Shown one piece after another: positions 18,299 to 33,519 of a stretch of DNA of 39,067 nucleotides; position 1 is the stretch's first letter, and each line of letters opens with the position of its first letter. The DNA is from Bacteroidota bacterium (GTDB lineage Bacteria; Bacteroidota; Bacteroidia; Palsa-965). The stretch is taken from the NCBI GenBank assembly GCA_013298545.1, contig JAAFIA010000046.1, positions 1 to 39,067 on the forward strand, written 5' to 3'. The position numbers and the translations under genes were made by a program. The notes beneath the pieces were generated by a model that had not been told where the DNA came from, searched no databases, and saw only the letters and a list, made by a program, of their open reading frames with translations.

Positions 18299-18354
18299 TA
18301 ACCAGTTTGTTGTTGAATAGAGTTCTTGTATCACTTCACTTCCAATCCATTACC

Positions 18355-21300
18355 TTGGAAACGACCAAAAAGCAACAACGCATCCACTTTGCTAAAAGCA
18401 AAGCCCAGCTCGATTATCCAGATTTTCTGGACATCCAGCTCAAATCATTTCAGGATTTCTTCCAGCTGGAAACCACCAGCGAAAACCGCCAAGACGAAGG
18501 TCTGTTTAAGGTGTTCTCGGAAAACTTTCCAATCTCCGACGCCCGAAACAACTTCGTTCTCGAGTTTCTCGATTACTTTGTCGATCCTCCGCGTTACTCG
18601 ATCGACGAGTGTATTGAGCGCGGTTTGACTTACAGCGTTCCGCTGAAGGCTAAACTCAAACTCTACTGTACAGATCCCGAACACGAAGATTTTGAAACCA
18701 TCGTGCAGGATGTCTATTTGGGAACAATCCCTTACATGACTCCGCGCGCTACGTTCGTTATCAATGGCGCCGAACGCGTCATCGTGTCGCAATTGCACCG
18801 TTCGCCCGGCGTGTTCTTCGGACAAAGCCGTCACGCGAATGGTACGAAGCTGTATAGTGCTCGTGTGATTCCGTTTAAAGGCTCATGGATTGAGTTTGCA
18901 ACGGACATCAACAATGTGATGTATGCGTACATCGACCGTAAGAAAAAGCTTCCGGTAACTACGCTGCTTCGTGCTATCGGTTACGAAACCGACAAACACA
19001 TTCTCGAACTTTTCGGCCTCGCCGATGAAGTGAAAGTTAGCAAAGCAGCACTGAAAGCCGTTCTTGGCCGTCGTCTCGCTGCCCGCGTTCTCAAAACTTG
19101 GGTAGAAGACTTCGTTGACGAAGATACCGGCGAAGTTGTTTCGATCGAACGTAACGAGGTTCTCATCGACCGCGAAACAATCCTCGAAGCACGCCACATT
19201 GACGAAATTGTTGAAGCCAATGTCAAGTCTGTTATTCTTCACAAGGAAGAAGCAAACAACCTTGACTACGCTATCATTTACAATACACTCCAGAAAGATA
19301 CTTCCAACTCGGAGAAAGAAGCGGTAGAACATATCTATCGCCAATTGCGTAATGCCGAACCACCGGATGAAGAAACCGCGCGTGGCATTATCGACAAACT
19401 CTTCTTCTCTGACAAACGTTACGATCTTGGGGAAGTTGGCCGTTACCGCCTCAACCGCAAACTCGGTCAATCTACCTCTGAAGACGTTCGCGTTTTAACC
19501 AAGGAAGATATCATTCAGATCATCAAGTATCTGATCGAACTCATCAACTCAAAAGCCGATATCGACGATATCGACCACTTGAGTAACCGTCGTGTTCGTA
19601 CTGTTGGCGAACAGTTGTATTCACAATTCGGTGTTGGTCTTGCCCGTATGGCACGTACCATCCGCGAACGCATGAACGTTCGCGACAACGAGGTGTTTAC
19701 ACCGACTGATTTGATCAATGCGAAAACATTGTCGTCAGTTATCAATTCGTTCTTCGGAACAAACCAGCTTTCACAGTTTATGGACCAAACCAATCCGTTG
19801 GCAGAGATCACGCACAAGCGTCGTCTTTCCGCTCTCGGGCCAGGAGGTCTCTCTCGTGAACGCGCAGGTTTTGAGGTTCGTGACGTTCACTACACACACT
19901 ATGGTCGTCTTTGCACCATCGAAACACCTGAAGGACCAAACATTGGTTTGATTTCTTCGCTTTGTGTGTATGCGAAAATCAATAAGCTTGGATTTATCGA
20001 AACACCTTATGTTACTGTTCATGACGGTAAAGCCGATGTCGATAAACCCGTTATTTATTTGACCGCTGAAGAAGAGGATCAGAAAATCATTGCACAGGCC
20101 AATGCTGGTCTCGACGAAAAAGGACGTTTCAGCGATTTGCGTGTTAAAGCGCGCTTCGAAGGCGACTTCCCAGTTGTTGAGCCATCGCAGCTTGCCTTGA
20201 TGGACGTAGCTCCAAATCAGATCGCATCGATTGCGGCTTCGTTGATTCCGTTTTTGGAACACGATGACGCTAACCGTGCGCTTATGGGTTCAAACATGCA
20301 ACGTCAGGCTGTTCCACTTCTCCGTCCACAAGCTCCAATTGTTGGAACTGGTCTCGAAGGATTGATCGCTCGCGACTCACGCGTTTTGGTTCAAGCCGAA
20401 GGCGAGGGTGTGATCGAAACAGTTGACGCAAACGAAATCGTTGTTCGTTACAACCGTACCGAAAACGAACGTTTGGTAAGTTTTGATACCGATATTAAAT
20501 CATACCGCCTCACCAAGTTCCGCAAAACCAACCAAAGCACCAGCATCACGCTTCGCCCAATCGTTAAGAAAGGCGATAAAGTGAAAAAAGGACAAATCCT
20601 TTGCGAAGGTTATGCAACACGCGATGGTGAATTGGCACTTGGACGCAACTTGAAAGTAGCGTTCATGCCTTGGAAAGGGTATAACTTCGAGGATGCTATC
20701 GTGATCAGCGAGCGCGTTGTTCGTGATGATATTTTCACCTCGATTCATATTGATGAATATGTGATGGAAGTTCGCGATACCAAACGCGGTCTCGAAGAAC
20801 TCACAGCAGATATTCCAAACGTTTCGGAAGAAGCAACCAAAGACCTCGACGAAAACGGATTGATCCGTATTGGTGCTGAGGTTAAGGAAGGCGATATCCT
20901 CATTGGTAAAATCACACCAAAAGGCGAAACCGATCCTTCTCCTGAAGAAAAACTCTTGCGTGCTATCTTCGGCGATAAAGCTGGTGATGTTAAGGACGCT
21001 TCATTGAAAGTTCCGCCTTCTATCCGCGGTGTTGTTGTTGAGAAAAAATTGTTCTCACGCGCCATCAAAGACAAAAAAGCGAAACTCGAAGAGAAAGCTG
21101 TTATCGAGAAAATCGATAAAGAGCAACTCACCGATGAGGTTGCACTCAAAGCCCATGCAGTTGAAAAATTGTGGACTATCCTCAACGGAAAAACTTCAAC
21201 AGGTGTTCTCAACAACATCAAAGAAGAAGTCGTTTCTAAAGGAACCAAGTTCTCTCAAAAAGGCATCGAAAAACTAGATCTCGTTAACATCGACTCTGGT

Positions 21301-22164
21301 AAATGGACTGCCGATAAAGAGACAAACGATTTGGTGAAAATGGTTCTCCACAATTACCAAATTAAGTTCAATGAATTGAATGGCGAATACAAGCGCCGCA
21401 AATTTGCAATCCAAGTTGGTGATGAATTACCAGCAGGTATTGTTCAACTTGCGAAAGTCTATATTGCTAAGAAGCGTAAGCTTAAAGTTGGTGATAAGAT
21501 GGCTGGTCGCCACGGTAACAAAGGTATCGTTGCTCGTATTGTTCGCGATGAAGACATGCCGTTCCTCGAAGATGGAACACCGGTTGATATTGTACTCAAC
21601 CCACTTGGTGTACCTTCACGTATGAACCTTGGTCAGATTTACGAAACCGTATTGGCATGGGCCGGCGAAAAATTGGGATTGAAATTCTCTACTCCAATTT
21701 TCGATGGTGCTACCATTGACGAAATCAATTCATACACCGATCAAGCTGGTCTTCCGCGCTATGGCCGTACGTTCCTCCACGATGGTGGAACAGGTGAGCG
21801 CTTCGACCAACCAGCAACAGTAGGTATTATCTACATGTTGAAACTTGGTCACATGGTTGATGATAAAATGCACGCGCGTTCTATCGGACCATACTCACTC
21901 ATTACACAACAACCATTGGGCGGTAAAGCACAATTTGGTGGTCAGCGTTTTGGTGAGATGGAAGTATGGGCACTCGAAGCATTTGGTGCTGCGAATATCC
22001 TTCAGGAAATTCTCACCATTAAGTCAGACGACGTTACCGGACGTGCGAAAGCATACGAAGCGATCGTCAAGGGCGACAATATGCCGCCTGCCGGAATCCC
22101 AGAATCGTTCAACGTATTGTTGCACGAACTCCGTGGACTCGGCCTCAATGTATCGCTCGACTGA
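18355..22164 (+). CDS. rpoB: RNA polymerase subunit beta
   Basis: The product is about 1269 residues from TTG 18355; the frame also has TTG codons from 18307 and no ATG near the N-terminus. The family N-terminus begins shortly before QRIHFAKSK, so 18355 fits best. Landmarks: [16 protein letters not shown], the rifampicin-binding region [18 protein letters not shown] (about residues 470-490, residues as in sensitive enzymes), then [29 protein letters not shown] and [12 protein letters not shown]. The C-terminal segment is [20 protein letters not shown]. It is co-transcribed with rpoC, which starts 47 bp later. Confidence 0.95.
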
Positions 22165-22211
22165 GTGGAAAAGAATTAACGTTCAAACGAATTTCAAACC
22201 GATACGCTACT

Positions 22212-25200
22212 ATGTCGTTCAGGAAAGAAACCAAGGTTAAAAGTAACTTCTCTGCTATCACAATCAGTTTGGCCTCACCCGAGTCCATCCTTGAGCGTTC
22301 AAGCGGCGAAGTACTCAAGCCTGAGACTATCAATTACCGCACTTACAAACCCGAGCGCGATGGCTTATTCTGCGAACGCATTTTCGGTCCTGTTAAGGAC
22401 TGGGAATGCCATTGCGGAAAGTACAAACGCATTCGCTACAAAGGCATTGTTTGCGACCGTTGCGGAGTTGAAGTAACCGAGAAAAAAGTACGTCGCGAAC
22501 GTATGGGCCACATCAGCCTTACCGTTCCTGTCGCGCACATCTGGTACTTCCGCTCATTGCCGAATAAAATCGGTTATTTGCTCGGTTTGCCAACCAAAAA
22601 GCTCGATATGATTATCTATTACGAGCGTTATGTGGTTGTCAATGCTGGTATCAAAGCAAAAGACGGAATCCAGCACATGGAATTCCTCACGGAAGAACAA
22701 TACCTGGAAATCCTCGAAACATTACCAAAAGAAAATCAACACCTCGAAGACAACGATCCAAACAAGTTCGTTGCTATGATGGGTGCTGATGCTCTTCAGG
22801 CATTGCTTGCACAGATCAATCTCGACGAATTGTCGTATGATCTGCGCCACAAAGCCAGCACCGAAACGTCGCAGCAACGTAAGAACGATGCCCTCAAGCG
22901 TCTTCAAGTTGTAGAAGCATTTCGTCAGGCCCGCAAAGTTGTAGAAAATCGCCCGGAATGGATGATTGTTCGCGTTGTTCCGGTTATTCCACCCGAACTT
23001 CGTCCACTCGTTCCACTGGATGGCGGACGTTTCGCAACTTCCGATCTCAACGACTTATACCGTCGTGTGATTATCCGCAACAACCGCCTCAAGCGTTTGA
23101 TCGAAATCAAAGCACCAGATGTCATTCTCCGCAACGAGAAACGTATGTTGCAAGAAGCTGTCGATTCATTGTTCGACAATTCCCGCAAATCAAATGCTGT
23201 TAAGACCGAATCAAATCGTGCCCTCAAATCACTCTCTGATTCACTCAAAGGCAAACAAGGCCGTTTCCGTCAGAACTTGCTCGGAAAACGTGTTGACTAT
23301 TCAGCGCGTTCGGTTATTGTCGTTGGACCAGAATTGAAATTGCACGAATGCGGTTTGCCAAAAGAAATGGCAGCCGAATTGTTCAAGCCGTTTATCATCC
23401 GTAAGCTCATCGAGCGCGGAATCGTGAAAACGGTAAAATCAGCAAAGAAAATTGTTGACCGCAAAGACGCTGTTGTTTGGGATATTCTCGAAAATGTATT
23501 GAAAGGACATCCTGTTCTCCTCAACCGCGCTCCAACACTTCACCGTTTAGGGATTCAATCATTCCAACCTAAACTCATCGAAGGAAAAGCGATTCAACTG
23601 CACCCGCTCGTTTGTACAGCGTTCAACGCTGACTTCGACGGTGACCAAATGGCGGTTCACGTTCCACTCGGACATGCCGCTATCTTGGAAGCACAATTGC
23701 TGATGCTTGCTTCGCACAATATTCTTAACCCTGCAAACGGTGCTCCTATTGCCGTTCCTTCTCAGGACATGGTACTTGGTCTGTATTACATGACCAAGGG
23801 CAGAAAAACGGATGCCGAGTTAACCATCAAAGGCGAAGGACTTCGTTTTTACTCAGCGCAAGAAGCAATTATTGCTTACAACGAAGGTCGTGTCGATCTT
23901 CATGCTTGGGTAAAAGTTCGTGTTCCAAATGCGCGCGAAAATGGTGAACTCGTTTCTAAAATTATTGATACAACACTTGGTCGTATTATCTTCAACCAAG
24001 TTGTACCAAAAGATGCGGGCTATATCAACGAATTGTTGACGAAGAAATCGTTGCGCGATATTATCGGTAACGTACTCAAAGAAACTGGAATGGCCGCTAC
24101 CTCTAAGTTCCTTGATGATATCAAAGAACTCGGATTTAAAATGGCGTTCCGTGGAGGTTTGTCGTTCAACTTGGGAGACATTATTGTTCCTGAGGAAAAA
24201 CCAAAACTCATTGCCGAAGCCAACGACCTCGTTGAAGAAGTGAAAGCCAACTACAACATGGGTTTCATTACCAACAACGAACGTTACAACCAGATCATCG
24301 ACATCTGGACACATACCAACTCACGCATTACCAAACGTGTATTGGATCAATTGACGAACGACCGTCAAGGATTCAACCCAGTTTACATGATGCTTGATTC
24401 TGGTGCTCGTGGTTCGAAAGAACAGATTAAACAGCTCGGCGGTATGCGTGGTTTGATGGCTAAACCATCAAAAGCAGGCAGCTCTGGCGGAGAAATTATC
24501 GAGAATCCGGTACTCTCCAACTTCAAAGAAGGTCTTTCAATTCTTGAATACTTTATTTCAACCCACGGTGCGCGTAAAGGTCTTGCCGATACCGCGCTCA
24601 AAACTGCCGACGCTGGTTATTTGACTCGTCGTCTCGTGGACGTTGCTCAAGACGTTATCATCACCGAACCAGATTGCGGAACACTCCGTGGTTTGATTGC
24701 GACAGCGCTCAAGAAAAACGAAGAAGTTGTTGAAAGCCTTTACGACCGCATCCTTGGACGTACAACCGTACATGATGTGTATGATCCACAATCTGGCGAT
24801 TTGATCATCAGTGCAGGTCAAGAAGTAACAGAAGAATTTGCTGGTCGCATCGAAAATTCAGCGATTGAATCGGTTGAAATTCGTTCAGTACTCACTTGCG
24901 AATCGAAACTTGGTGTTTGTGCCCGTTGCTACGGACGTAACCTTGCTACTGGCCGTATGGTTCAGAAAGGCGAAGCTGTTGGTGTTATTGCAGCACAATC
25001 TATTGGTGAGCCAGGAACACAGCTTACACTCCGTACCTTCCACGTTGGTGGCACTGCGTCAAGTATTGCTGCTGCTTCTAAACTCGAAGCGAAATACGAC
25101 GGTATTGTTGAAATTGAAGAATTGCGTACAGTAAAACGCAAAACCGAAAATGGATCATTCGATGTTGTTATCGGTCGTTCGGCTGAACTCCGCATCGTTG

Positions 25201-26501
25201 ATGCCAATACACAGATTGTTGTCATGACAGGTAACGTTCCTTACGGTTCACAGCTTTATGTGAAAAACGGAGAAAGCGTGAAGAAAGGTCAACTCATCTG
25301 CGATTGGGATCCATACAACGCCGTTATCGTTTCTGAATTCGGTGGTAAACTTTCGTTTGAACACATCGAAGAAGGTGTAACCTTCCGCGAAGAATCTGAC
25401 GAACAAACCGGCTTCAAAGAAAAAGTTATTACAGAAACAAAAGATAAGTCGAAGAACCCGTCTATTCGCATTGTGAATGGCGACGAAATTCTGAAGACCT
25501 ACAACATTCCGGTATCTGCGCACATCGTAGTTGATGATGACCAGAAAATTGAACCCGGTCGTATTCTCGTTAAAATTCCACGCGCTGTTGGTAAACAAGG
25601 TGATATCACCGGTGGTCTTCCACGCGTAACCGAATTGTTCGAGGCACGTAACCCGTCAAATCCGGCTGTTGTTTCTGAAATCGATGGTACGGTGTCGTTT
25701 GGTAAAATCAAACGTGGTAACCGTGAGGTGATTGTAGAATCACGCACAGGCGAACGTAAAACTTACCTCGTTGCGTTATCAAAACACATCCTTGTTCAAG
25801 AAAACGATTTCATCCGTGCTGGTGAATCACTTTCTGACGGTTCGATCAGCCCTGGAGATATTCTCTCCATCAAAGGTCCAACTGCTGTTCAGGAATACTT
25901 GGTCAACGAAGTGCAAGAAGTATATCGTTTGCAAGGTGTAAAAATCAACGACAAGCATTTCGAAACGATCGTTCGTCAGATGATGCGTAAAGTTGAAATC
26001 TCCGACCCAGGCGATACCATGTTCCTCGAAACACAATTGGTCAATAAAGCCGATTTCATGGAAGAAAACGACCGTCTTTTCGCGAAGAAAGTTGTGATCG
26101 ATCCAGGCGATTCGCCAAACATGAAAGCAGGTCAAATCATCTCTGCACGTAAACTTCGCGACGAAAACTCTTCGCTGAAACGTAAAGATTTGAAATTGGT
26201 TGAAGCCCGCGATGCCGTTACCGCTACTTCGCAACAAGTATTGCAAGGTATCACACGAGCATCGTTGCAAACAAACAGTTGGGTATCTGCTGCATCTTTC
26301 CAAGAAACAACCAAAGTCCTCAACGAGGCGGCTGTCAATGGAAAGCAAGATACCTTGCTCGGCCTCAAAGAAAACGTTATCGTTGGTCACCTCATTCCTG
26401 CTGGAACAGGTCTCCGCGATTACGAAAAATTGGTGGTTGGTTCGAAAGAAGAATTCGAACGTTTGCAAGCTGCGAAACGCGAAGCAATGGAAGAAGCGTA
26501 A
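22212..26501 (+). CDS. rpoC: RNA polymerase subunit beta'
   Basis: The 1429-residue product is of normal Bacteroidota length. The N-terminal zinc site [20 protein letters not shown] lies at about residues 66-85. The catalytic [12 protein letters not shown], whose three Asp bind magnesium, is near residues 471-482. A second zinc cluster, [14 protein letters not shown], is near residue 895. [15 protein letters not shown] marks the trigger-loop region. The rest is complete, with a C-terminus rich in Glu/Ala. A strong terminator follows the stop. Confidence 0.98.
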
Positions 26502-26522
26502 GCCATTCCCATTCTTTAATAC

Positions 26523-26562
26523 AAACAGAAACGCCTTCCCGAAACGGAAGGCGTTTCTGTTT
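26523..26562 (+). terminator. Intrinsic terminator after rpoC
   Basis: A 17-bp perfect stem (26523-26539 with 26546-26562) with a 6-nt loop ends in a T-rich 3' arm. It closes the ribosomal-protein/RNA-polymerase operon. Confidence 0.88.
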
Positions 26563-26638
26563 ATACACCGATTTATTCCATTTACCGACACATTTTTCTT
26601 CCCAGCCTCATTCAGGAAACGTTTACTATCAGCTTCCG

Positions 26639-26646
26639 TATATTTG
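26639..26646 (+). promoter_or_regulatory. Candidate -7 box before the histidine kinase gene
   Basis: TATATTTG is a full match to TAnnTTTG and lies 11 bp before the ATG. No good -33 element is seen at 19-21 bp. If used, the leader is very short. Confidence 0.4.
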
Positions 26647-26657
26647 ATCAATCAACG

Positions 26658-27758
26658 ATGAAAACACGCATTCCTACCGCACTTATTCATGTTATTGGAA
26701 GCATCGCTTTTTTAGCCATTCCATTTCTGATTTCTCCCGATTCCGTTATGACTGGCGCGTTTTTTCGTCACGCTCCGCCAGTTGCAGACTTAATCAACTA
26801 CATCTTGTTGCTTGGCTTTTTTTATCTGAATTATTATTACATCATTCCTCAGATTTATTTTAAGCGTCGCTACTGGCTTTTTACAGCAGCACTTGCGGGT
26901 AGTTTTTTGGTGGTGAGTGTTGTACCGATCCTCATTGCGCGGCCTTTGACTGCCAATCAGAAAAAAAATGTAGCGCAGTTTAAACCAATGCCCCCGCCAC
27001 ACATCAAACCATCAGATCGGCAACCAATGCCGCCCGAGTTTTTGCCTATTGAACATGAAGCGAAAAAAACATTTCGGCCACCTGCTCGTTTGATGCAGTA
27101 CGCCAACAGTACATTTCGTTTTTTGTTAATTGTCGTTCTTTCACTTTTACTCCGTATTTCCGCTCGTTTAAGACAAGAGAAGCAGGAAAAATCGCAAGCC
27201 GAAGTGGCCTACCTCAAAGCGCAAATCAATCCGCACTTTTTGTTCAATACGCTCAATGGCATTTATTCCCTCGCCATTCAAAAGTCTGATGCTACCGCGC
27301 CTGCCATTGTCAAACTCTCTGAAATGATGCGTTATGTAACGACTGAGTCGCAACAGGAATTTGTGCCTCTTGAAAAAGAAATGAATTACCTGCGCAATTA
27401 CATTGACCTGCAGAAAATGCGCGTAGGCGAAACAATCGCACTTGTATTTCGTATCGATGGCGAGGCTCTGGGCAAGTCGATTGCGCCACTTTTACTCATT
27501 CCGTTTATCGAAAATGCGTTTAAGTACGGTATCAATCCAGAAGAGAAAAGTGAAATCAATATACACATTCAGCTTTTGACCGATGTTGTTTTGCTTGATG
27601 TGAAAAATCAAAAAGTAAATATTCAATCATCTGATGGAGCGGGCACAGGATTAGAGAACGCTCGAAAACGTCTTGCCTTATCTTATCCCGGAAGACATAC
27701 ACTACAAATTGACGAAACCGAATTTCGTTTCGCCGTCCATTTAAAAGTCCTGTTATGA
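26658..27758 (+). CDS. LytS/YehU-type sensor histidine kinase
   Basis: The 366-residue product has about four membrane segments (roughly residues 8-25, 45-62, 72-92 and 150-170). A proline-rich linker lies between the third and fourth. The kinase part belongs to the His_kinase family (PF06580): KAQINPHFLFNTLNGI, with phospho-acceptor His193, then EMMRYVTTES and LEKEMNYLRNYIDLQKMR. The ATP-binding N box is LIPFIENAFKYGI and a short GTGLENARKRL G box follows. No periplasmic sensor domain is evident, so the signal is unknown. Its stop overlaps the next start by four bases (ATGA), so kinase and regulator are translationally coupled. Confidence 0.92.
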   Translation: MKTRIPTALIHVIGSIAFLAIPFLISPDSVMTGAFFRHAPPVADLINYILLLGFFYLNYYYIIPQIYFKRRYWLFTAALAGSFLVVSVVPILIARPLTANQKKNVAQFKPMPPPHIKPSDRQPMPPEFLPIEHEAKKTFRPPARLMQYANSTFRFLLIVVLSLLLRISARLRQEKQEKSQAEVAYLKAQINPHFLFNTLNGIYSLAIQKSDATAPAIVKLSEMMRYVTTESQQEFVPLEKEMNYLRNYIDLQKMRVGETIALVFRIDGEALGKSIAPLLLIPFIENAFKYGINPEEKSEINIHIQLLTDVVLLDVKNQKVNIQSSDGAGTGLENARKRLALSYPGRHTLQIDETEFRFAVHLKVLL

Positions 27759-28456
27759 TAAAAGCAATAGCACTCGATGACGAACATTTGGCTTTAGAAG
27801 TCATTCGCGCCTATTGCAAACAACAAGGCGAAATCCAACTCGACAAAACATTTGTTCGGCCAAGCGAAGCATTGGAATACTTGGGTAAATTTCCAGTCGA
27901 TTTGATTTTTCTCGACATTCAAATGCCTTCCGTTCTCGGTGTCGATTTTGCGCAACAAATTCCTAAACACATCGCTGTTATTTTTACCACAGCACATAGC
28001 CAATATGCTGTTGAAGGATTTAACCTTAGTGCTGTTGATTATTTACTCAAGCCATTTTCATTTGAACGCTTTGAGCAAGCCATCAAAAAAAATCAAATAC
28101 AACGAAAGCCAACGCAAGAAGCAACAACCACACAAACCATTTCCATACGCGCCGATTATAGCCTGATTCCGGTTGCGCTCAATACCATCAAACTCATCGA
28201 AGGGCTTGATGATTACATTAAAATTCATGTCGATAACCGCAGTCCCATTGTGGCGCGGATGACGATGAAAGGCATACTGCAAAAATTACCCGAATCGCAA
28301 TTTATTCGCATTCACCGCTCTTACATTGTTCCCATTCATCTCATTGAAAGTATGCGAAACAAAGTGCTACTCGTTGCCGGAAGAGAACTTCCTGTTGGAT
28401 CGAGTTATGAGCAATTGGTAAAAGCGCAAATCGCCGCACAATCATTTTCCGCATAA
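27755..28456 (+). CDS. LytTR-family response regulator
   Basis: The 233-residue product has a receiver domain (about 1-115) with acidic pair Asp8-Asp9, phospho-acceptor Asp54 (LIFLDIQMP) and Lys99 (DYLLKPF). A LytTR DNA-binding domain follows (about 130-230): SLIPVALNTIKLIEGLDDYIKIHV, then RMTMKGILQKLPESQFIRIHRSYIVP. LytTR proteins bind pairs of short direct repeats about two helical turns apart. The region just downstream, before the next gene, contains such a tandem repeat at 28502-28534. It is the partner of the upstream histidine kinase. The targets are inferred, not shown. Confidence 0.93.
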   Translation: MIKAIALDDEHLALEVIRAYCKQQGEIQLDKTFVRPSEALEYLGKFPVDLIFLDIQMPSVLGVDFAQQIPKHIAVIFTTAHSQYAVEGFNLSAVDYLLKPFSFERFEQAIKKNQIQRKPTQEATTTQTISIRADYSLIPVALNTIKLIEGLDDYIKIHVDNRSPIVARMTMKGILQKLPESQFIRIHRSYIVPIHLIESMRNKVLLVAGRELPVGSSYEQLVKAQIAAQSFSA

Positions 28457-28501
28457 AAGCAAGCATTCACCGCAAAAAAAGCATGCATTCGCACCGAAAA
28501 C

Positions 28502-28534
28502 TTTACATTAGTAACAAATAGTTTACATTAGTAA
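28502..28534 (+). promoter_or_regulatory. Tandem 13-bp repeat, candidate LytTR binding site
   Basis: TTTACATTAGTAA occurs at 28502-28514 and again at 28522-28534, a 20-bp period or about two helical turns. Each unit is itself an inverted repeat (TTTAC - 4 nt - GTAA). It lies directly before the arylsulfotransferase-like gene and just after the LytTR regulator gene. A looser GCATTC repeat pair (28463, 28485; 22-bp period) lies upstream. Confidence 0.6.
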
Positions 28535-28547
28535 ACCGATCAACCTC

Positions 28548-30218
28548 ATGAAAAAAAATCTGCTCTCTCTCGTTGGTATCCTCCTTGCAGGAACAAGTCT
28601 TCTCGCTCAACAATGGGGCGATTATACACTCGTCGCTCCCCAAAATAGCACAACCGTACGTTTACTTGATACCGCAAGTAATATTTACCACTCTTGGACT
28701 GGCTTGTCAGGGCAAACCGGATATTCGAATTATGTGCTTCCAGGCGGCGTACTCTTACGCACGGTCAAAACCAGCAACAATGTCTTTACGGGCGGTGGCA
28801 TGTGCGGGCGCGTTCAGAAAGTAGATTACAACGGAAATTTACTTTGGGACTACACCTACTCAACATCAACCTACTGTTCCCATCACGATATTTGCGCCCT
28901 TCCAAACGGTAATGTCTTGTTGATTGCTTATGAATTAAAATCTGCCGCTGATGCGACACAAGCCGGATGCCAATCGTCTATAACCATGTGGCCCGATAAA
29001 ATTGTCGAAGTACAACCAACAGGCGCTACAACTGGTACGATTGTTTGGGAATGGCATCTCTGGGATCACCTCTGCCAAAGTATCAATCCCAATGTCGATA
29101 ATTATGTGAGCAATGTTGGCGATCATCCCGAACTCTTCAACATCAATGCTAGTCCCACAAAAGAAATTTTTCACGCAAACGGATTGGATTACAATCCCAT
29201 GCTCGATCAAATCGTTTTGAGCGCGCACAATACCGATGAGTTTTATATCATCGATCACAGCACAACCATGGCCGAAGCGGCTTCGCACAGTGGTGGGCGT
29301 GGAGGTAAAGGTGGCGATTTTTTATACCGTTGGGGAAATCCATCCAACTACAACCAATCCGGCAACACCATTTTCAATGTCTTACACGATTCACATTGGG
29401 TTCCCGAAAATTGCCCCAACGCCGGAAATTTAGTGGCACTCAACAACAAGGGTATTTCCAATACACAATCGTGCGTTGATCAAGCTACACCACCGGTTTC
29501 TGGATTTAATTATTCGTACACACCGAATACGGCTTACGCACCATCGACATACACCCAGCGTCAGAATTGCACGGGTGGCACAACAAACATGGGCAACTCG
29601 CAGCAATTGCCCAACGGCAATATGTTAATCTGCCTCGCACTTTCAGGAACGATTTATGAAATTAATGCTGCCGGCACTACACTTTGGTCTTATACCGCAA
29701 GCGGATCTACCGCGCAAGCATTTCGGTATAGTGCCTGTCAAGTAGCCAATGCTGCACCCGCTATTCCAACCATTACGACCAATGGCAATGTCTTGACGTC
29801 AAGTGCGGCAACAACGTATCAATGGTATTTCAACGGACAGCCACTTGCGGGTGAAACCAATCAAGCATATACGGCAACACAAGATGGTGTGTATGCGGTG
29901 CGTGTTACCGATGCGAACGGATGTTGGTATAGTTATTCTTCGCTATTTGATTTTGTGGTGATTACCGATGTCAATACGCTTGCAGTAAACAACAATATTG
30001 TGTTGTTCCCAAATCCAACAACGGGAAATATTTTCATCACGGGTTATGCCAATACAGACACACACGTTCATGTGATGGATGCGTTAGGACGCGAAGTGTA
30101 TAGTATGGCGATGAAATCTGAAATGGATTTGTCGATGCTTGAAAATGGTATTTACCACGTCATCATCGAAAACGAAAATGGTGAGCGCGTAAGCAAGAAA
30201 ATTATCATTCAGCACTAA
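28548..30218 (+). CDS. Secreted arylsulfotransferase-like protein with T9SS sorting domain
   Basis: The 556-residue product has a signal peptide (MKKNLLSLVGILLAGTSLLAQ). A beta-propeller-like body (about 25-400) resembles arylsulfotransferase-type (ASST) proteins. It has repeated strands such as KVDYNGNLLWDYTY, HHDICALPNGNVLLIAYE, IVWEWHLWDHL and NSQQLPNGNMLICLALSGTIYEIN. The conserved His pair in CSHHDICALPNGN is suggestive, but I cannot confirm catalysis. A short Ig-like segment (YQWYFNGQPLAGETNQAYT) follows near 420-460. The C-terminal domain NIVLFPNPTTGNIFITGYA to the end is a T9SS type A sorting signal. The protein should reach the cell surface or medium. Confidence 0.82.
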   Translation: MKKNLLSLVGILLAGTSLLAQQWGDYTLVAPQNSTTVRLLDTASNIYHSWTGLSGQTGYSNYVLPGGVLLRTVKTSNNVFTGGGMCGRVQKVDYNGNLLWDYTYSTSTYCSHHDICALPNGNVLLIAYELKSAADATQAGCQSSITMWPDKIVEVQPTGATTGTIVWEWHLWDHLCQSINPNVDNYVSNVGDHPELFNINASPTKEIFHANGLDYNPMLDQIVLSAHNTDEFYIIDHSTTMAEAASHSGGRGGKGGDFLYRWGNPSNYNQSGNTIFNVLHDSHWVPENCPNAGNLVALNNKGISNTQSCVDQATPPVSGFNYSYTPNTAYAPSTYTQRQNCTGGTTNMGNSQQLPNGNMLICLALSGTIYEINAAGTTLWSYTASGSTAQAFRYSACQVANAAPAIPTITTNGNVLTSSAATTYQWYFNGQPLAGETNQAYTATQDGVYAVRVTDANGCWYSYSSLFDFVVITDVNTLAVNNNIVLFPNPTTGNIFITGYANTDTHVHVMDALGREVYSMAMKSEMDLSMLENGIYHVIIENENGERVSKKIIIQH

Positions 30219-30236: not shown

Positions 30237-31244
30237 ATGAAACAACTATTTTTTTGTCTCGCATTGGTACTGTTCGGATTTTCGGCAGAAGCCAAGAAAG
30301 TGAAATTTGCTGTAGATATGTACGGTCAAGTTTTGGATACTGGCGGCATGCACATTGCTGGCGATTTCCAAACCCTTGCGGGTTATCCGGGCGGCGATTG
30401 GCAAGCCAATACAACACCGCTGACCAATGAGCCGAACTCTACCATTTACAGTGTGGTAGTCGATATTCCTGCATTCGCCAAATATGAATTTGTCTATATC
30501 AATGGCGACCAAGGCTACTTGCAGGAATTTGTTCCAGTTGAATCGCGGGTAAATTATAATTTCAATGCTAACCGTTGGATTTATGTTGACTCACTTTCAA
30601 ATGATACGCAACTGATTGCGCCTGTTTTGTATGGTGGTAACGCACCACTCGGCATGTACTTGCTCCGTTTCTATGTCGATATGCAATATGTTGCTTCGAT
30701 TGATCCGCAAGGTGTGCATGTCAACGGCGATTTCCAAAATTGGGTCAATCCCAAATACATGGTTAGTTTCGATAATATTGTTTACGAATACATCGCCTAC
30801 ATTGACACACTCGATGCTGCGCTTGTTTCGGAATACATTTTCATGAATGGCGACCAATCCATCAACGAAGAAACGGTTCCGGCACCCTGCGCTACTTCGA
30901 ATTTCAATCGGGGAACTACGGTTCCGCATGATACCATGTTAGGAATTGTTTGTTATGCGGCATGCGTAGATTGCGCTAGTGTTGGTGTTGATGAGGAGCT
31001 TGCAGCGCAAACAGAAATTAATGTTTCTCCAAACCCAGCATCCGACGGTTTCTGGGTTTCATCGTCAACAGCAATTGCACAAATTCAGCTTACCGATATG
31101 ACAGGTCGTTTGGTGAAAACAGAAAAAACACCGCTCGCCACCACACAACGTATTTCTCGCGATGAATTGCCGCAAGGGATTTACCTGTTACAACTAACTG
31201 ATGTAAATGGTAATCACTTTAGTAGCAAAATTATTTTTCAATAA
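30237..31244 (+). CDS. Secreted two-repeat beta-domain protein with T9SS sorting domain
   Basis: The 335-residue product has a signal peptide (MKQLFFCLALVLFGFSAEA). Two copies of one domain follow, at about 22-120 and 140-240. Each has VDM near its start, then HIAGDFQ or HVNGDFQNW, then YINGDQ or FMNGDQ, then an EFVP/ETVP stretch and an Asn-Arg ending (FNANRW, FNRGTT). This resembles CBM20/E-set modules of starch- or glycan-binding proteins. The C-terminal 75 residues are a T9SS type A signal (INVSPNPASDGFWV to the end). Such proteins are often beside CotH genes in Bacteroidota, as here. Function is unknown; glycan binding is a guess. Confidence 0.75.
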   Translation: MKQLFFCLALVLFGFSAEAKKVKFAVDMYGQVLDTGGMHIAGDFQTLAGYPGGDWQANTTPLTNEPNSTIYSVVVDIPAFAKYEFVYINGDQGYLQEFVPVESRVNYNFNANRWIYVDSLSNDTQLIAPVLYGGNAPLGMYLLRFYVDMQYVASIDPQGVHVNGDFQNWVNPKYMVSFDNIVYEYIAYIDTLDAALVSEYIFMNGDQSINEETVPAPCATSNFNRGTTVPHDTMLGIVCYAACVDCASVGVDEELAAQTEINVSPNPASDGFWVSSSTAIAQIQLTDMTGRLVKTEKTPLATTQRISRDELPQGIYLLQLTDVNGNHFSSKIIFQ

Positions 31245-31251
31245 AAAAACA

Positions 31252-33519
31252 ATGCGCAAACATTTCCTGTTTTTGTATGTAAGCCTTGCGCTTTTGCTGT
31301 TCGGAAAAACGGCAAAAGCGCAATCCGCTTTTTACGCACCAGATACGATTCAAACCATCGAAATAAATTTCACAGAGCCGAACTGGGATTATATTTTAGA
31401 TACGGCAAAAGCTGGCTCGGATAGTTATTTGATAGGTCAAGTAATTGTAAACGGAATTGTTTTCGATAGTTGCGGCATTCAATACAAAGGAAATTCGTCG
31501 TACAACGTTAACCGCACTAAAAATCCGTTTCACATCAAACTGGATTACATTCACGGTAATGCAGATTACCAAAGCTACAACGATATAAAACTCGGCAATG
31601 GCTATGGCGACCCATCGATGCAACGCGAAGTGCTAGCGTATGAAATTTTACGCAACTACATGGCCGCACCACAAAGCAATTTTGCGCGCGTCTATGTCAA
31701 TGGAACATACTATGGTGTTTATACCAACACACAAAGTATAGATGACGATTTTCTCAACGCCCATTTTTATTCTTCAGCAAACACATTTTTCAAATGCAAT
31801 CCGGTTAGTGTGATTGGTGGCAATATCCCCAACCTCGTTTACCTCGGACAAGACAGTACGCAATACTATGCCCGCTATGAATTAAAATCAACAATGGGTT
31901 GGCAAGAACTGATTGATCTTTGCGATACGATCGTCAATCAGCCTGCTGCACTTGATTCCATGCTCGATATTGATCGTGCGCTTTGGATGCTTGCTTACAA
32001 CAATGTGCTTGTTAATTTAGATAGTTATACAGGAGCCTTTGCACAAAATTATTACCTCTACCGCGATGATAATGAACGTTTCTGTTCCATCATTTGGGAT
32101 GTGAATATGGCGTTTGGTGGTTTTTCCAATACGGGCGTTGGCAATCTCAATGTGTCGGGAATGCAGCAGATGCCTCCCATGTTGCATTACAACTACGCCG
32201 CCCGCCCGCTAATCGTAACCTTGCTTACTGATGCGCGATACAGCAAAATGTACATTGCACACATGCGTACCATCACCAACGAATTTTTTGGATCAGGTAA
32301 TTACCTCACGCGCGCGCAACAGTTTGAAACATTGATCGACAGCTCTGTTCAGGCCGAGCAATTTTCGTTATATACCTATCCACAATTCCAAAATGCGTTA
32401 ACAACAGCCGTTTCCAATACACCCGGCATTTCGCAACTCATGAGTGCGCGTACAACATACCTCAATGCAACGACCGAATTTCAGCAAGTTGCACCAATGA
32501 TTTCAAATATTCTCTCCAGCCCGAACGCACCTGCATTGAATGATAGCATTTGGATCACGGCAACAGTAACCAACAGCAGCCAAGTTTTTATTGGCTGGCG
32601 TACGCAAACGTATAACCGTTTTTACCGTTATGCGATGTACGATGATGGTTTGCACCAAGACGGCGCAGCCAACGATAATGTTTTTGGCGCATGGATTCCT
32701 GCCATCGCCGCAAACATGCAATATTATATTTATGCCGAAAATGCAAATGCAGGCATGTTTTCGCCCGAGCGCGCGGAGTACGAATTTTACAATATTGCAG
32801 TTGCTGTACAAACTGCTGCAGCTGGAGAAATTGTCATCAACGAATTGCTTGCCAGTAACCTCGCTGATACAACAGATGAAGCAGCACAACACGAAGATTG
32901 GATCGAATTGTACAACCGTGCAGCCTATCCGTTGAGTTTGCAAGGTTTGTATTTGACAGACGATTATACTGTTCCGCAAAAATTCCCACTTCCCGATTTG
33001 GTGATGCCGGCCAACAGTTACTTGCTCGTTTGGGCCGATCAAGATCAAGCCAGTTCGTCAAATGTGCATGCGAATTTTAAATTATCTACATTGGGAGAAC
33101 AAGTCATGCTTAGTAATTTTGCTGGTGTTGTGATTGATAGCGTAAGTTTTGGCGCACAAACAACCGATATTTCGTATGGGCGTTGCCCGAGCGCAACTGG
33201 TCCGTTTGCGGTCTTTTTAAATTCGACACCATTAGCCTTAAATACGTGTCCAGCGTCCACGGAGGAATACGATCAGCACCAAAGTATGCGGGTGTTTCCC
33301 AATCCCGCAGAAACACACGTACAACTTGTTTTTTCGGAATCGGTTGATGGAACGGTTGAGTTGATGGATGTACAAGGACGTTTGGTGAAAACAGAAACGT
33401 TATCTGCAAACACACTCCAGCTCGATGTTGCCAATTTAGAATCTGGCATGTACTTAATTTTGCTCCGTAACCGCGAAGGCGAAATGATGTTGCAGCAACG
33501 GGTTGTCATTTCGCATTGA
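31252..33519 (+). CDS. Secreted CotH-like protein with lamin-tail and T9SS sorting domains
   Basis: The product is about 755 residues from ATG 31252; an in-frame start at 31207 overlaps the previous gene and would hide the signal peptide. The signal peptide is KHFLFLYVSLALLLFGKTAKA. A CotH domain (about 30-400) has the GIQYKGNSSYN start, NDIKLGNGYGDPSMQREVLAYEIL and CSIIWDVNMAFGG, with the conserved Asp of this protein-kinase-like family. A lamin-tail domain (LTD, about 535-660) begins GEIVINELLASN and includes DWIELYN. The last 75 residues are a T9SS signal (MRVFPNPAETHVQLVF). CotH of Bacillus phosphorylates spore coat proteins; here it must act outside the cell, on an unknown target. Confidence 0.85.
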   Translation: MRKHFLFLYVSLALLLFGKTAKAQSAFYAPDTIQTIEINFTEPNWDYILDTAKAGSDSYLIGQVIVNGIVFDSCGIQYKGNSSYNVNRTKNPFHIKLDYIHGNADYQSYNDIKLGNGYGDPSMQREVLAYEILRNYMAAPQSNFARVYVNGTYYGVYTNTQSIDDDFLNAHFYSSANTFFKCNPVSVIGGNIPNLVYLGQDSTQYYARYELKSTMGWQELIDLCDTIVNQPAALDSMLDIDRALWMLAYNNVLVNLDSYTGAFAQNYYLYRDDNERFCSIIWDVNMAFGGFSNTGVGNLNVSGMQQMPPMLHYNYAARPLIVTLLTDARYSKMYIAHMRTITNEFFGSGNYLTRAQQFETLIDSSVQAEQFSLYTYPQFQNALTTAVSNTPGISQLMSARTTYLNATTEFQQVAPMISNILSSPNAPALNDSIWITATVTNSSQVFIGWRTQTYNRFYRYAMYDDGLHQDGAANDNVFGAWIPAIAANMQYYIYAENANAGMFSPERAEYEFYNIAVAVQTAAAGEIVINELLASNLADTTDEAAQHEDWIELYNRAAYPLSLQGLYLTDDYTVPQKFPLPDLVMPANSYLLVWADQDQASSSNVHANFKLSTLGEQVMLSNFAGVVIDSVSFGAQTTDISYGRCPSATGPFAVFLNSTPLALNTCPASTEEYDQHQSMRVFPNPAETHVQLVFSESVDGTVELMDVQGRLVKTETLSANTLQLDVANLESGMYLILLRNREGEMMLQQRVVISH

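Follow-up and report, generated by a model that had tools for sequence, protein, structure and literature searches.

A predicted LytTR operator with a putatively doubled -7 region upstream of a secreted-protein operon in a Bacteroidota bacterium

To our knowledge, only a small number of regulators of T9SS cargo have been described, and a literature search at the level of titles and the starts of abstracts returned no paper on a DNA motif recognised by LytTR regulators in Bacteroidota. In the locus described here, from contig JAAFIA010000046.1 of a Bacteroidota bacterium (the whole stretch of 39,067 nucleotides that was analysed is referred to below as the window), a short gap containing two exact copies of a 13-bp sequence separates a gene for a LytTR response regulator from a row of genes for secreted proteins. 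A first-pass annotation had proposed these copies as a candidate site through which a kinase/regulator pair controls the secreted proteins or itself.

The genes follow rpoB and rpoC in the order histidine kinase (26658-27758, + strand, with the PF06580 His_kinase domain as the only Pfam match of its product), LytTR response regulator (27755-28456, + strand, PF00072 and PF04397, stop codon at 28454-28456), the first putative target gene, which encodes an ASST-like protein with a T9SS sorting tail (28548-30218, + strand, PF05935/PF14269 and PF18962, Por_Secre_tail), a second gene for a protein with a T9SS sorting tail (30237-31244, + strand, PF18962, Por_Secre_tail) and a third with domain matches to CotH, LTD and a T9SS sorting tail (31207-33519, + strand, Por_Secre_tail). 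This kinase-regulator-cargo cluster lies directly 3' of rpoB and rpoC, from which it is parted by what by eye is a terminator-like inverted repeat near 26529-26562 (18307-26562 for the stretch that ends with this repeat).

A two-block motif in regulator-to-cargo gaps

Searches across genomes, in which the regulator and the ASST-like protein each served as query, yielded 30 records in which a regulator gene is followed by an ASST gene; after nine place-repeating records were dropped, 21 distinct places, including the window, were left. Repeats of the type TTTACCTCA, TTTACCGAT or CACCGCA can be read by eye in these gaps. A de novo EM search for two blocks described by one shared matrix, run at each spacing from 9 to 33 on 18 of the 21 regulator-to-cargo gaps (the window and the near-duplicates L112 and L130 were left out), returned the consensus TTTACC[TG]CAA twice, exactly 21 bp apart. 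The score at spacing 21 was 145.0, the next best being 65.9 at spacing 22, and ten shuffles fitted at spacing 21 gave 17.4-24.6. The form is thus one of 10-nt half-sites with an 11-nt spacer and a spacing sweep that peaks at 21 only, and the sequence between and around the half-sites has diverged among relatives. When each of the 18 relatives was scored by a model trained without it, pair scores ranged from 9.1 to 26.9 bits and reached at least 14 bits in 15 of them; the same-genus genome G003 fits poorly (9.1 in the leave-one-out test and 3.2 at its kinase promoter).

In the window, the first half-site, TTTTCCGCAT (28445-28454, + strand, 7.1 bits), overlaps the regulator stop codon, as it does in several relatives too (TAACCTCA), and the second, TTCACCGCAA (28466-28475, + strand), is with 14.0 bits the best half-site of the region. 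Together they score 21.1 bits at exactly 21 bp under the model trained without the window. A possible weak third half-site, TTCGCACCGA (28488-28497, + strand), follows 22 bp after 28466 and gives 12.0 bits as a pair with it. It is the second copy of a looser pair with a 22-bp period that had been noted upstream of the 13-bp repeats and is indeed present (GCATTCACCGC at 28463 and GCATTCGCACCG at 28485); the half-site at 28466-28475 overlaps the first copy, and TRF reports 28455-28500 as a tandem repeat of period 22. A main pair formed by 28466 and 28490, 24 bp apart (20.3 bits), was considered and rejected since the relatives use 21 bp only.

In 400 kb of the bacterium's own genome (798,800 positions), no site reached 21 bits at 21 bp, the maximum being 19.2. 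A pattern scan of the whole genome allowing up to 3 mismatches gave 49 matches versus 24 for the reversed control; 28445-28475 was the sole match with one mismatch, none had zero mismatches, and the other own-genome matches are mostly chance. The score of 21.1 bits is not unique genome-wide, because two matches beyond this operon exceed it (L145 with 23.3 and L162 with 22.1 bits).

The -7 box and the exact 13-bp repeat

In 16 of the 18 relatives, a box of the form.A..TTT[GA] is found at +37, counted from the first letter of half-site 2, and no other offset occurs in more than 3/18; this rule was first noticed by eye and counted afterwards, with the stronger of two pair matches used for L032. 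According to PMC9723704, Bacteroidota sigma-A promoters carry a TAnnTTTG box at -12 to -5, and on that numbering the half-sites would start at about -70 and -49, positions that suit an activator. Judged from its placement, TAnnTTTG is a start signal in the bacterium's own genome as well, since 59 matches lie between -45 and -8 upstream of 184 genes and 8 lie between -100 and -66; in the same test the variant TAnnTTAG gave 3 against 0 and is thus weakly enriched and rare.

The two copies of TTTACATTAGTAA are exact and are located at 28502-28514 and 28522-28534 (+ strand), between the LytTR regulator gene and the ASST-like gene; just as the first-pass annotation had it, they have a 20-bp period and lie between the regulator gene and the first cargo gene. 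Each holds a -7-like box, TACATTAG (28504-28511 and 28524-28531), which is the TAnnTTAG variant, one consensus letter off TAnnTTTG. The box of copy 1 lies at +38 from 28466 and 44 bp ahead of the ASST-like start codon, versus 22-37 bp for the +37 position in 16/18 relatives; the box of copy 2 lies at +58, begins 24 bp ahead of the start codon and is at +36 from the weak half-site at 28488. An alternative assignment of the -7 box to TAGTTTAC at 28519 was rejected as a poorer fit to TAnnTTTG, and no TTG is present in the window cargo promoter at the position of the relatives' weak -33 element.

With up to 3 mismatches, the spaced pair of 13-mers has one match in the window and none in 100 dinucleotide shuffles. 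The genome search that had been suggested for it found the exact spaced pair to be unique and no third copy of the 13-mer in the whole 4.53-Mb genome. Exact direct repeats of at least 13 nt with a period of 18-24 occur 10 times in a 400-kb sample of the own genome, most of them in two arrays of short repeated units, and an isolated repeat of such kind is uncommon, yet not unheard of, there. As to conservation, which the first-pass annotation had also asked about, the 13-bp repeat was not found in G001 or G003, both of the same genus and with the same gene arrangement. In the window, half-site 2 and the start codon are 82 bp apart, compared with 59-74 bp in 16/18 relatives (L085 and L086 have long gaps), so that this distance is longer by about 20 bp. 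A duplicated -7 region is the simplest account: most likely, tandem duplication by one 20-bp unit doubled this region and gave rise to the exact 13-bp repeat.

It is possible, though rather improbable, that this recent duplication is neutral and that the LytTR box still works with one copy. The lack of the repeat in the two same-genus genomes and a gap longer by approximately one unit are what such an event would leave behind, but the -7-like letters have been kept exactly in both copies, and at least one copy must act as the -7 box if the geometry of the relatives holds.

The first-pass annotation took the 13-bp copies themselves for the LytTR half-sites. They could also be extra low-affinity sites below the main pair, and their exactness and 20-bp distance, a match of TTTACATTA to TTTACCTCA at 7/9 letters (by eye), and two TTTACATT copies 19 bp apart below the main pair of G051 (L032) speak for such a role. 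We nevertheless regard it as unlikely, since the copies score -0.4 bits each, a value that 2.5% of sampled genome positions attain, and -0.8 as a pair at 20 bp; as a half-site the 13-mer would be without another genomic copy or a counterpart in G001 and G003, and in G051, TACATTTA within the second copy takes the place of the relatives' -7 box. What stands of the original proposal is a direct repeat two helical turns apart, with a period of 21 bp and built of other letters; its half-site at 28466-28475 lies inside the interval first noted, and that at 28445-28454 lies outside.

Each 13-mer also contains the dyad TTAC-N4-GTAA (28503-28514 and 28523-28534). The two copies might accordingly be read as inverted repeats that form the double operator of a different dimeric regulator blocking the promoter, and the scarcity of the dyad (nowhere else in the window, in 0/184 sampled upstream regions, 10 times in 400 kb of the own genome) would agree with this. 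However, none of the gaps at the remaining 20 distinct regulator-cargo places contains the dyad, no candidate regulator was found and the 13-mer is without a second genomic site, which makes this reading quite improbable.

Kinase promoters, linkage to cargo and a candidate third target

The kinase-regulator operon of the window is preceded by a predicted module of the same build. Its first half-site, TTTACCGACA (26581-26590, + strand), scores 10.2 bits with the PWM derived from the relatives' regulator-cargo gaps only, and the second, CCAGCCTCAT (26602-26611, + strand), is weak with 3.4 bits; the pair scores 13.6 bits at 21 bp. The putative -7 box TATATTTG (26639-26646, + strand) is an exact match to TAnnTTTG and lies at exactly +37, again counted from the first letter of half-site 2. 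Kinase promoters played no part in motif training. The kinase start was readable in 14/20 relatives (L032, L081, L084, L120, L131 and L133 were left out), and 12 of these 14 reach 13 bits, the exceptions being L121 with 10.0 and L026 with 3.2; among 57 other rows (duplicates kept), 5 reach 14 bits. Within the 12 relatives with at least 13 bits, the strict box is found at +37 in L024, L109, L112 and L118, at +36 in L023 and at +38 in L090 and L092; no strict match at +36 to +38 is present in the kinase promoters of L085, L086, L107, L129 and L130, the last two of which have TATTTTAG at +37. Therefore, +36 to +38 seems to be the natural range, which takes in the +38 of the window. The presence of the same predicted module at the kinase promoter would imply self-regulation, and the idea that the LytTR pair controls both the secreted proteins and itself is thus well supported and constitutes the best reading of the locus.

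The occurrence of the box was further compared with the presence of neighboring genes. ASST homologues without a regulator directly upstream score under 6 bits in 19/20 cases, and the exception, L057 of G007 (15.6 bits), has a regulator within the same gene row. In G007:C36, of the same family, genes for ASST, T9SS-tail and CotH proteins, the kinase and the regulator stand in a row behind a single box (L206:2935-9894). Of 70 regulator loci without an ASST neighbor, 4 reach 14 bits (L113, L114, L110 and L028), and in L113 the box precedes a gene for a Dioxygenase_C protein with a T9SS sorting tail (L207:1786-2793, same place). In L114 and L115, the gene 3' of the regulator has a beginning similar to that of L113. 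In L087, L088, L089 and L091, the regulator gene is followed by one for an LTD-like secreted protein (by eye). None of these four regulator gaps has a box that reaches 14 bits, so the motif is not used by every relative, and either motif or target may have changed there. A quick tree was built from 73 regulators, of which 21 have ASST and 25 a box; on its supported branches, the box tracks the ASST neighbor in 6.8 of 7 independent pairs (p 0.016), a result that is supporting rather than independent because the motif was trained on the same loci. The notion that the 21-bp motif is a mere by-product of the shared ancestry of the regulator-cargo gap, with no binding site, has very little to recommend it: the loci are homologous and some come from close relatives, but the surrounding sequence has diverged, the motif recurs with the same period in front of the kinase genes, where the DNA is not that of the gap, and it also precedes the unrelated, dioxygenase-like cargo of L113.

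A further site in the window's own genome is the 23.3-bit box at L145:1501-1531 (G000:C84:4748-4778), which has TATTTTTG at +37 and lies upstream of genes for MbnP (PF20243) and CCP_MauG. Among 30 of the 49 pattern matches that were compared as loci, only this one and the window site combine a pair of at least 15 bits with a box at +36 to +38. The regions upstream of MbnP homologues score higher in the 8 nearest relatives than in 21 farther ones (p 1.7e-4, the split having been made after the scores were seen), and the MbnP/di-haem cytochrome c peroxidase operon is a candidate third target of the regulator.

Proposed mechanism and comparison with known LytTR systems

We propose that 28445-28534 is probably the operator-promoter of the secreted-protein operon and that it is activated by the LytTR regulator through the box at 28445-28475. 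The protein steps of this scheme are modelled on the LytTR family, and it is the DNA anatomy that was computed here. The kinase would phosphorylate the LytTR regulator encoded just upstream of the cargo operon, and the phosphorylated regulator would bind the direct half-sites 28445-28454 and 28466-28475 on one face of the DNA. Once bound, it would recruit RNA polymerase, and so activate rather than repress, at a weak TAnnTTTG-type -7 box about 37 bp on. Duplication of the -7 region would have produced two TACATTAG boxes, one at +38 and the other two helical turns further on at +58, and the module at 26581-26646 would let the regulator drive its own kinase-regulator operon.

More tentatively, and with somewhat less than even confidence, one may think of a Bacteroidota LytTR regulon in which a family of regulators reads TTTACC[TG]CAA-N11-TTTACC[TG]CAA, whose distance to the -7 box is fixed, and co-ordinates its own operon, T9SS cargo (ASST-like, CotH/LTD and dioxygenase-like) and the MbnP/di-haem cytochrome c peroxidase operon. 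The window promoter would then have undergone doubling, each step spanning two helical turns, with the weak half-site at 28488 serving the second -7 box (+36), to give two overlapping regulator-promoter modules. A motif of fixed geometry makes regulator targets predictable from sequence, and it allows the sensing pathway behind the secreted proteins to be tested directly.

LytTR operators generally consist of repeats of 9-11 nt separated by spacers of 11-13 nt, according to PMC4847170. Like the operators of AgrA, VirR, YpdB, BtsR/YehT, FsrA and others, the window box has direct repeats, each about 10 nt long and parted by an 11-nt spacer, and is adjacent to a predicted promoter; it also lies beside a pair of PF06580 kinase and LytTR regulator genes. 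PF04397 is encoded in the adjacent gene and the box tracks the regulator-ASST linkage; its distance to the presumed -7 box is +38 at the cargo operon and +37 at the kinase operon of the window, as compared to +37 in 16/18 relatives. Among the matches listed from a sequence search of solved structures, there were matches in the receiver domain and no LytTR-DNA complex. With regard to the promoter itself, the Bacteroidota sigma-A promoters, as PMC9723704 describes them, are alike in the type and place of the putative box, and the cargo box TACATTAG differs in its letters and in being doubled.

The E. coli systems BtsR (YehT)/yjiY and YpdB/yhjX resemble the window in having a LytS/LytTR pair and a repeat-type operator, and the yjiY oligo given in PMC4847170 likewise holds ACC-type repeats (by eye). 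When scored at 21 bp with the motif derived from the relatives, the yjiY oligo gives 11.4 and the yhjX stretch -9.2 bits. Neither E. coli stretch is thus a good match at 21 bp, which does not support a sequence motif shared with the BtsR/YpdB subfamily; the window kinase, with His_kinase as its sole Pfam match, is a further point of difference. The consensus TTTACC[TG]CAA, the link to T9SS cargo and the TAnnTTTG-type -7 box at a fixed 37-bp distance set the window box apart from the known LytTR operators, and we consider the predicted box to be of the LytTR operator kind, with a motif of its own.
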